Positions 5,972-22,758 of a stretch of 26,306 nt of DNA are shown piece after piece (position 1 is the first letter of the stretch; each line of letters opens with the position of its first letter). Location of the stretch: IMG/VR virus record IMGVR_UViG_3300030385_000861, positions 1 through 26,306 of that record. One strand, written 5' to 3'. Below the pieces are notes generated by a model. That model had not been told where the DNA came from. It saw only the letters and a program-made list of their open reading frames with translations, and did no database searches. The translations under genes and the position numbers were made by a program. The DNA comes from a virus.

Positions 5972-6229
5972 ATGCCAACGAATTTAATAGTGAGACAAGG
6001 GATAACGGGAGTAGTAGTAACTCCAAGCGATAGTGTGGATATAGTGGGAGCTACTGCGAACACTCCTGCGACCTTATTTGTGGGAACTGGTGGAGATATA
6101 TCAGTAATCACTTTGGGAGGCTCTACGCTTGTTTTAAAGAATATTGCAGATGGCTCTTTCCTACCTATTCAGGTAACAAGGGTGAAGGCAACCAGTACAA
6201 CGGCAACGGATATTGTAGCTTTATTTTAG
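5972..6229 (+). CDS. Head spike base protein (RCAP_rcc01079-like family)
   Basis: This 85-residue protein has the full pattern of the small spike-base family known from the Rhodobacter gene transfer agent and many phages: an N-terminal VTPSDSVDI, central ALFVGTGG-type segment (here ATLFVGTGGDISV), LKNIADGSFLPIQVTRV and the C-terminal TATDIVALF. Members assemble on the capsid and hold a head fiber. The next gene, four bases downstream, codes for a large lectin-like protein that would be the fiber, so the pair looks like a capsid-borne adhesion module. The gene follows a terminator, so it probably has its own promoter in the A/T-rich 58 bp before it. Length matches the family. Confidence 0.75.
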   Translation: MPTNLIVRQGITGVVVTPSDSVDIVGATANTPATLFVGTGGDISVITLGGSTLVLKNIADGSFLPIQVTRVKATSTTATDIVALF

Positions 6230-18689: not shown

Positions 18690-18720
18690 TTTGCACATAA
18701 AGAAAAAAGGTGTATATTTG
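18690..18720 (+). promoter_or_regulatory. Bacteroidota-type promoter with early leader
   Basis: TTTG (18690-18693) and TATATTTG (18713-18720) are spaced by 19 nt. The 29 bases from 18713 are identical to those from 13305 at the first early promoter, including the leader up to AACACTAAGA. The -33 element begins two bases after the nuclease stop. Confidence 0.75.
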
Positions 18721-18743
18721 TAGAGAACAAAAACACTAAGAAG

Positions 18744-18980
18744 ATGAAAAATTACATTTACACACTAGCAGAAGAGAAAGGCTTAAACTTACTAAATGAG
18801 ATTGAGGTGCAAGGGGAAAGCGGTTTAAATATTATTCCTTTAGGAGTTGTAATTGAACATATTTTAATAGCTCCACAGATTGAGCAAAATATGATTAAAA
18901 AAACGCTTGTGAAAATAGACTTCCATAACGGAGATGTTATGCACTTCTTTAAATACTTAGCGCAAGCGATAGCAAAGTGA
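18744..18980 (+). CDS. Small early-type protein (78 aa), unknown
   Basis: The gene follows a full promoter and the shared leader, so it is probably expressed early or strongly. The product has a helical N-terminus (YIYTLAEEKGLNLLNEIEV), a hydrophobic middle (IIPLGVVIEHILIAP), and a C-terminal part VKIDFHNGDVMHFFKYLAQAIA. No family is recognised. Its TGA stop is the last codon before a folded RNA element, in the sequence AAAGTGA. Confidence 0.55.
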   Translation: MKNYIYTLAEEKGLNLLNEIEVQGESGLNIIPLGVVIEHILIAPQIEQNMIKKTLVKIDFHNGDVMHFFKYLAQAIAK

Positions 18981-19157
18981 GCAAGCTACTAGAACGCTGC
19001 AATTAAAGTCCTGAGTAAGTCAATGGCTCAGGCAAACATAACGAGAGCTTCCTGCGTGAGTGGAGCAATAGTAAAAAGCCCTACGATGGGGATTGTAGGC
19101 AATCGGTGTTGAAGACTGGACTTTAGGGGGCGGTGGGAACTTGCCTCCTAGAGCTTC
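18981..19157 (+). ncRNA. Structured RNA element, possibly HEARO/omega-RNA-like
   Basis: This 177-nt stretch between two genes has few usable frames and folds by eye into a compact multi-helix structure. A closing helix pairs 18983-18992 with 19148-19156 (nine pairs, A18988 bulged). A second long-range helix pairs TAAAGTC (19004-19010) with GACTTTA (19119-19125). Inside are hairpins CTGAG/CTCAG (19011-19015 with 19027-19031) and GCCCTAC/GTAGGC (19078-19084 with 19095-19100, one bulge); GGGGC/GCCTC (19127-19131 with 19143-19147) lies between the two long helices. It starts directly after GTGA, which fits the reported insertion context of HEARO RNAs, the RNA partners of IscB-like nucleases. No IscB or HNH gene follows; an AP2-domain gene does. 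The HEARO link is from memory and unproven; a riboswitch-like leader or another RNA class is possible. Confidence 0.6.
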
Positions 19158-19177
19158 AACCAACTAAAACAAGAGAG

Positions 19178-19519
19178 ATGAAAGCAGACATTCTAAGTGA
19201 AGCATTAAAGCCTATAAAATATAAAACCTTGTTAGGTACTGTTAAGGATTTGTTTAGTTCAAACTATCATGGAGTTAGGAAAGACAAGAGGAAAGATAAA
19301 ATTTGGTGGAGGGCGGCGATTATGATTAACAAGAACAAAGTTTATTTAGGAGCGTACCTAATAGAAGACGAGGCAGGATATGCTTTTAATGTAGCGCATA
19401 AAATATTTACAAACGGAAAAGTATCTATTATAAATAATGTATCTCTTGGGGATATTCAAGCGCAAGAGATTGAATATAAGGTTGTAAATATATTACTGGA
19501 CAAAGGAGTTATTAAATAG
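19178..19519 (+). CDS. AP2-domain DNA-binding protein
   Basis: The 113-residue protein holds an AP2/integrase-like DNA-binding domain at about residues 28-80: SSNYHGVRKDKR, IWWRAAIMINKNKVYLGAYL and EDEAGYAFNVAHKIF. In phages this domain usually forms the C-terminal half of HNH homing endonucleases; here no HNH part is encoded before it, and the ATG at 19178 follows a leader (AACTAAAACAA) also seen before the next gene. The upstream frame from GTG 19133 lies inside the folded RNA and is not a credible start. It may be a remnant of a homing element or a regulator. Its place directly after the RNA element suggests the two travel together. Confidence 0.75.
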   Translation: MKADILSEALKPIKYKTLLGTVKDLFSSNYHGVRKDKRKDKIWWRAAIMINKNKVYLGAYLIEDEAGYAFNVAHKIFTNGKVSIINNVSLGDIQAQEIEYKVVNILLDKGVIK

Positions 19520-19540
19520 TTCATAACTAAAACAAACGAT

Positions 19541-19627
19541 ATGAAAATAATGTTCACAATTTTAGCAATAGGCTTAATTACCTTACTATGGTATGACGGC
19601 GATATAAAACAAAGGAATAATGATTGA
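19541..19627 (+). CDS. Very small membrane peptide (28 aa)
   Basis: The frame starts at ATG 19541 after the leader AACTAAAACAAACGAT. It encodes one hydrophobic helix (IMFTILAIGLITLLWY) and a short polar tail (DGDIKQRNND). It overlaps the next gene by 8 nt. A real single-pass peptide is plausible given the leader and overlap, but such a short frame could arise by chance. Confidence 0.4.
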   Translation: MKIMFTILAIGLITLLWYDGDIKQRNND

Positions 19628-22418: not shown

Positions 22419-22498
22419 AAACAAATAAAACAATAAATCTATTTTCGTTCTGTGTGGCGGTATATCTGTTCGCTTGCTTAGTGCTTTCGATATTGTGA
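22415..22498 (+). CDS. Very small membrane peptide (27 aa)
   Basis: ATG 22415 overlaps the preceding stop as ATGA, and the TGA at 22496-22498 overlaps the GTG of the HNH gene. The product is a single hydrophobic helix (FSFCVAVYLFACLVLSIL) after a short polar N-terminus. The two stop-start overlaps argue for a real, coupled gene. Confidence 0.5.
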   Translation: MKTNKTINLFSFCVAVYLFACLVLSIL

Positions 22499-22758
22499 GG
22501 AATCATACAAAAATATACTTAGAGTACTTCAGCTTCGATGTAAGCGACTTTATCCCCTGCGAGATATGCTCATCCCCTGCTCAAGATATTCACCATATAG
22601 AAGCCAGAGGAATGGGAGGCAGTAAGTTAAAGGATAACATCGAAAACCTTCAGGCAGTTTGCAGGGCTTGCCATATTAAGTACGGCGATAAGAAGCAATA
22701 CAAGGATATGATAAAAGAAATACACCAAAAATATATGCAACGATATGGAAAAGAATGA
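22495..22758 (+). CDS. HNH endonuclease next to terminase
   Basis: The 87-residue protein carries a complete HNH module: CEICSSPAQDIHHIEARGMG (two Cys, the HH pair) and NLQAVCRACH with the final CxxCH. HNH proteins directly before the terminase genes often work with terminase in DNA packaging of cos-type phages. I choose GTG 22495, which overlaps the stop of the small peptide as GTGA and gives RNHTKIYLEYF as the start; a TTG at 22474 in the same frame would add seven residues. It overlaps the small terminase gene by 14 nt. Confidence 0.8.
   Translation: MRNHTKIYLEYFSFDVSDFIPCEICSSPAQDIHHIEARGMGGSKLKDNIENLQAVCRACHIKYGDKKQYKDMIKEIHQKYMQRYGKE

Follow-up and report, generated by a model that had tools for sequence, protein, structure and literature searches.

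A short modular structured RNA in an uncultivated phage and its relatives in viral contigs

The window analysed here, 26,306 nucleotides of the IMG/VR virus record IMGVR_UViG_3300030385_000861, carries between two small genes a noncoding RNA built as a chain of hairpins, which almost certainly belongs to a real, conserved family of structured RNAs. The reading that we favour, at a probability of about 0.6, is that this RNA is a short member of a new modular family of uncultivated phages, which would be cut from a transcript and act in trans. The original prediction had left three options for this stretch, namely a nuclease-free HEARO derivative, a domesticated guide RNA with a DNA-binding partner and a new class of RNA; of these, only the last one is supported by the data presented below. 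The family is absent from Rfam, and no earlier description of it was met in the open literature, to which the reading was confined.

Hairpin modules and their conservation

The intergenic gap at 18981-19180 separates a complete 78-aa gene from a 112-aa ORF and contains no other likely gene. The G+C content of the RNA stretch is about 46%, versus about 30% in its surroundings. Its folding energy is only mildly below that of shuffled sequences (z between -1.3 and -2.5, depending on the borders), so that thermodynamics alone would not establish the presence of an RNA. The features of the region are the following:

18709..18721, + strand: Bacteroidota-type -7 element TATATTTG (TAnnTTTG), the nearest upstream promoter-like site
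18744..18980, + strand: gene for a conserved phage protein of 78 aa (phrog_6004); its stop codon and the 5' end of the RNA overlap
18977-19163, + strand: structured noncoding RNA, a chain of hairpin modules M1 to M5
18977..19000, + strand: M1, GUGAG plus hairpin, overlapping the TGA stop of the upstream gene
19006..19034, + strand: M2, AAG(U)CC hairpin
19041..19067, + strand: M3, ACGAGAG plus hairpin
19077..19101, + strand: M4, second AAG(N)CC hairpin
19108..19160, + strand: M5, 3' hairpin
19161..19183, + strand: conserved 3' leader CAACTAAAACAAGAGAGATG, which continues into the next gene's start codon
19181-19519, + strand: gene for a small AP2-domain protein of 112 aa, a neighbour of the RNA here and not a conserved partner

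M1 and M3 are hairpins of one kind, consisting of G[A/U]GAG, a 2-bp helix, a bulged base, a 3-bp helix and a 9-nt loop, which reads YACUUGAAC or UGCGUGAGU. In M1 the pairs G18981-C19000 and C18982-G18999 are separated by the bulged A18983 from A18984-U18998, G18985-C18997 and C18986-G18996, which close the loop UACUAGAAC (18987-18995); in M3 the bulged U19049 lies between G19047-C19066 and C19048-G19065 on one side and U19050-A19064, C19051-G19063 and C19052-G19062 on the other, and the loop is UGCGUGAGU (19053-19061). The other repeated kind, AAG(U)CC...GGC, is represented by M2 (G19008-C19033, bulged U19009, then C19010-G19032 to G19015-C19027) and by M4 (G19078-C19100, bulged C19079, then C19080-G19099 to U19087-A19092, with the loop GGGG). 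Across copies, the G-C pair flanking the bulged U alternates with A-U, giving AAA(U)CC...GGU. The chain ends with M5, where an outer helix (GUUGAAG 19108-19114 with CUUCAAC 19154-19160) encloses an inner hairpin formed by CUUUAGGGGGC (19121-19131) and GCCUCCUAGAG (19143-19153) around the loop GGUGGGAACUU (19132-19142); both parts have pairing probabilities of 0.7-1.0. Pairing of AAGU in M2/M4 with ACUU in the M5 loop, a loop-loop interaction, was also considered and was dropped, as the variants AAGACC and AAAUCC do not keep the pairing.

A covariance model of M3-M4-M5 was built from four other loci (L228, L206, L196 and L252), leaving the window out. Its single match in the window covers 19040-19163 and scores 75.1 bits (E 1.6e-15, a rough value given the short calibration); this confirms the earlier claim of a noncoding stretch folding into several hairpins. 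When 73 other loci were searched, 53 matches were obtained, across which 96.7% of the base-pair cells are paired, versus at most 51.5% in slid controls. Both-side changes occur in 22 of the 24 pairs, values that none of 500 shuffles reached, and covariation is present in every modelled helix: helix 2, corresponding to M4, has 96.1% of its cells paired and both-side changes in 6 of 7 pairs, while helices 3 and 4, which form M5, have them in all 12 pairs. The alignment behind these figures was fitted to the structure, whereas the stem counts made by script for M1/M3 and M2/M4 were not. In these counts, 4 or 5 of the 5 base pairs are formed in 193 of 209 M1/M3 motif matches, which comprise 42 distinct hairpins, versus 96 of 1248 slid controls, and a stem of at least 4 bp is found in 128 of 133 M2/M4 motifs versus a background of 112 of 512 (22%). 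Stems were counted by script and on the covariance-model alignment; MAFFT alignment of M3 plus M4 misaligns the variable linkers. Furthermore, contigs picked by M1 alone also contain M2 and M3, in unchanged order.

The overall architecture differs from the one first proposed, in which two long-range helices, AAGCUACUAG/CUAGAGCUU and AAAGUCC/GGACUUU, enclosed the internal hairpins. Their pairing probability is at most 0.002, and a fold forced to contain both is about 9 kcal/mol worse, since the bases involved are part of the strong hairpin at 19108-19160; homologues that possess both ends do not keep the two helices. The fresh covariance model that had been suggested as a check returned a significant match, with compensatory changes in M3-M5.

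Distribution, genomic setting and tRNA fusions

Relatives of the window phage were fetched using the terminase gene as bait, and recognisable versions of the RNA were found in two close relatives (L065 and L060) and in two shorter contigs (L093 and L096). The pattern AAGCYACTNGAACGCTGC, derived from the conserved 5' part, has 55 matches in viral contigs, 53 of which are preceded by G[A/T]GAG, while a pattern for the middle hairpin matches at least 119 stretches. After removal of duplicates, about 117 non-redundant IMG/VR arrays are present among the matches listed, where a few chance matches may remain. All credible copies sit in viral contigs, with no credible match in the genome collections: the M1 pattern has 25 matches in 257 Gb of bacterial and archaeal genomes, none of them with the flanking motifs, and the R1 model, which matches 17 of 20 virus records, has none in 396 Bacteroidota genomes, an empty answer that is weak for want of a known positive. 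The RNA was not found in INPHARED phages, BLAST of the whole RNA against phages and plasmids gave nothing credible, and the 27 matches of the exact 15-mer AAAGTCCTGAGTAAG in viral contigs are all due to chance. The RNA occupies one locus in 16 of the 17 matching virus records, including contigs of 61-95 kb; in the 17th (G403), 86 nt separate two modules that flank a tRNA. The carrier phages are uncultivated, and their host is probably a member of the Bacteroidota, as suggested by the TAnnTTTG promoters together with the similarity of the terminase to those of Bacteroides and Parabacteroides phages.

The copies are placed between small accessory genes, in intercistronic gaps of variable regions, and in 23 of 107 arrays the 5' end lies within about 6 nt of a stop codon. 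In the window, the GTGA that had been noticed at the 5' border is indeed there, and the GTGAG to which it belongs overlaps the TGA stop (18978-18980) of the 78-aa gene. This gene is complete, ending where its relatives end, and 29 relatives found in viral contigs lack such an RNA behind them. The gene is old and widespread among phages (phrog_6004), being shared by those of Bacteroidota, mycobacteria, E. coli, Vibrio and Methylophilales. The C-terminus of the protein is strikingly conserved (KIDFHNGDVMHFFKYLA), and part of the gene is alike even at the DNA level, with 80% identity over 74 bases to coliphage FtMidnight.

A comparison with related phages lacking the element had been proposed to define its borders. 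At the site that the RNA occupies in the window, the interval between the VRR-NUC gene and the sigma-like gene, 12 of the 16 relatives covered have an interval that is compact (0.67-0.73 kb) and devoid of the RNA, while in the other 4 it contains the RNA and measures 1.0-2.1 kb. In five further relatives the RNA is located behind the terminase gene, at a distance of about 60 nt in four of them.

Genes downstream of the RNA are diverse among the homologues. The 3' leader CAACTAAAACAAGAnnnATG also precedes unrelated genes in L065 and in other contigs; in L065 itself, RNA and leader stand ahead of an unrelated small ORF. Downstream of the RNA in another contig (L118), consecutive small genes each follow a near-identical leader, AACTAAAACAAGACTAAGATG, which is also seen in the window at 19161-19183 and 19524-19543, as if these were gene cassettes with a common ribosome-binding leader.

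Concerning transcription, the sequence suggests that the window RNA is probably read within the operon served by the site at 18709..18721. Within the 450 nt upstream of the RNA, TAnnTTTG occurs in 43 of 117 arrays, which does not clearly exceed its density of 0.36 per 450 nt; there is thus no general enrichment of a dedicated promoter, and only particular loci (L060, L107 and L188) suggest independent transcription. A clear U-run follows the RNA in only 21 of 117 arrays. Two minimal copies behind the terminase gene (L107, position 11227, and L085, position 3291) resemble a free-standing gene for a small RNA, with a TATATTTG promoter-like site, one hairpin module, a G-rich hairpin with the loop UGGUCGU and a T-run, in this order.

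A different arrangement is seen where the RNA is fused to a tRNA. A tRNA T-arm is found 28-32 nt upstream of 9 of 105 M3 modules, versus 5 of 2100 in the background, which means that M3 begins directly where the tRNA ends. Such tRNAs are called by Rfam and ARAGORN in L157, L201, L229 and L248, together with one of 137 nt in L237. In L229, the 3' half is nearly identical to that of the window and a tRNA replaces M1-M2. The tRNA-like structures directly before M3 in L237 (7214-7350, - strand) and L118 (about 6062-6200, - strand) have intact acceptor and T-arms and a long insertion where the normal anticodon arm would be; the one in L237 sits between two module copies. In six contigs (L188, L192, L205, L237, L238 and L248), extra conserved domains (about 85 nt), of the form AGGC...AAUCUCAG...CUGAG..GCCU, are located 5' of M3 and lengthen some copies to about 400-600 nt.

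The neighbouring AP2-domain gene

The ORF that follows the RNA (19181-19519) does encode an AP2-domain protein, as had been stated: it matches phrog_99 (E 8e-5) and phrog_13470 (E 2e-4), in both cases the AP2 part of the profile only, and the PDB structure of the AP2/ERF protein WRI1 (E 0.007). Pfam AP2 itself was not reported for the 112-aa protein, and an AlphaFold model made with no alignment has a pLDDT of 57, too weak for use. When the protein was used as bait in viral and genome contigs no relatives were recovered, and none is present beside any other copy of the RNA, which speaks against the proposal of a domesticated guide RNA with a dedicated DNA-binding partner. A second AP2-like family, with proteins of 66-72 aa, occurs in six contigs (L118, L141, L144, L221, L139 and L277) at 275-711 nt downstream of the last hairpin module; it is not picked up by phmmer with the window protein. 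The absence of a nuclease, also part of the original prediction, holds for the immediate surroundings of the RNA but not for the window, where an HNH gene is present at 22474-22758, away from the RNA. Inspection of the commonest neighbour clusters around the homologues revealed no gene resembling IscB or TnpB.

Possible roles and comparison with known RNAs

In the reading that we favour, each RNA would string together a small number of hairpin modules that can replace one another, whose loops and single-stranded flanks are conserved, and would end in a strong 3' hairpin. Most likely, it would be excised from an operon or pre-tRNA transcript and, by analogy with GOLLD and ROOL, would then work in trans as a folded RNA, rather than regulating whichever gene comes next. 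The occurrence of usually one locus per genome, the selection on fold and loops, the tRNA fusions and the changing neighbours and position point to a trans product, and we lean slightly towards this mode of action. More specifically, but only tentatively, the family could be a categorically new class of large modular phage RNA made of shuffled hairpin cassettes, freed from tRNA or operon transcripts and acting in trans on the host during infection, for instance on ribosomes, tRNAs or RNA polymerase.

The principal alternative is an element that acts in cis within the operon, such as a processive antiterminator or a determinant of RNA stability or processing, which would operate in the nascent transcript for any genes that follow. 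The intercistronic placement, with a start often at a stop codon, suits such an element, as do the usual single locus per contig, the variable downstream genes and the 3' hairpin and leader CAACTAAAACAAGA that run straight into the next start codon. However, tRNAs fused in front of M3, copies such as that of L107 that resemble stand-alone promoter-RNA-terminator units and the different position of the RNA among related phages fit it poorly, and we consider a cis role possible but rather unlikely. The changing locations in related phages, together with variable flanks and mosaic module combinations, would instead be expected from a mobile RNA cassette, a small transposable or homing element settling at stop codons or behind tRNAs and having no function for the phage. 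Yet nearly all matching records, the long contigs included, have one locus, covariation over many modules indicates selection on the RNA fold and no encoded mobility gene was seen; this explanation is therefore improbable.

The proposal of a nuclease-free remnant or domesticated form of an IS200/605-type guide RNA, with the AP2 protein as a new partner, starts from a real likeness to the HEARO/IscB omega-RNA (RF02033): a length of about 200 nt, a sharp 5' border after variable flanks, GTGA in the window copy and in part of the others, and presence/absence polymorphism. HEARO RNAs are reported to insert directly after ATGA or GTGA, but about half of the M1 copies start with GAGAG rather than GTGAG, and the locus is usually single; in place of an adjacent HNH/RuvC (IscB-like) ORF there is the gene for the 112-aa AP2 protein, which is itself not conserved. 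The search with the HEARO model, indicated earlier as a check, gave no match in the window, whether the gathering score or a limit of E 10 was applied; the same is true, at E up to 10, of the models of GOLLD (which we take to be RF01998), ROOL (presumably RF03087) and group I introns. A genome search likewise did not support HEARO. The published order of the IscB omega-RNA is an adaptor hairpin, a nexus stem, a central stem and a GGGG pseudoknot (PMC9640706), an architecture that is not seen here, the module order being different. The RNA is thus very probably not a HEARO or omega-RNA, and its derivation from one is highly improbable; GTGA plus a fold is not sufficient for a HEARO call. A group I intron was also considered and rejected: although a P3/P7/P8-like pseudoknot can be drawn, Rfam gives no match (E up to 10) and no gene is interrupted.

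Among RNAs with a role in cis, HK022 put and EAR are processive antitermination RNAs with several hairpins, located between genes in long operons. The RNA described here is likewise a multi-hairpin RNA between genes; it differs in that its family includes embedded tRNAs and apparently stand-alone copies.

The nearest known kind of RNA is GOLLD/ROOL, the ornate RNAs of phages. These are large structured RNAs of phages and prophages with no known function, not tied to one protein and often near tRNA islands, and GOLLD has tRNAs embedded in a linker (PMC12286853). The present RNA is also phage-borne, with a tRNA directly before 9 of 105 M3 modules. Conversely, the GOLLD and ROOL covariance models match neither the window nor 22 homologous loci, for which Rfam returned only tRNA above threshold and sub-threshold hits were taken as chance, and the present family is made of repeated and shuffled hairpin modules and is not seen in bacterial genomes. 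Few classes of phage noncoding RNA are known, and with its presence in more than 100 viral contigs, its extreme modularity and its tRNA fusions this family provides a natural small-to-large series for finding the minimal working part. GOLLD is often longer than 800 nt, whereas the window copy, at less than 200 nt, is small enough for chemical probing or structure solution.
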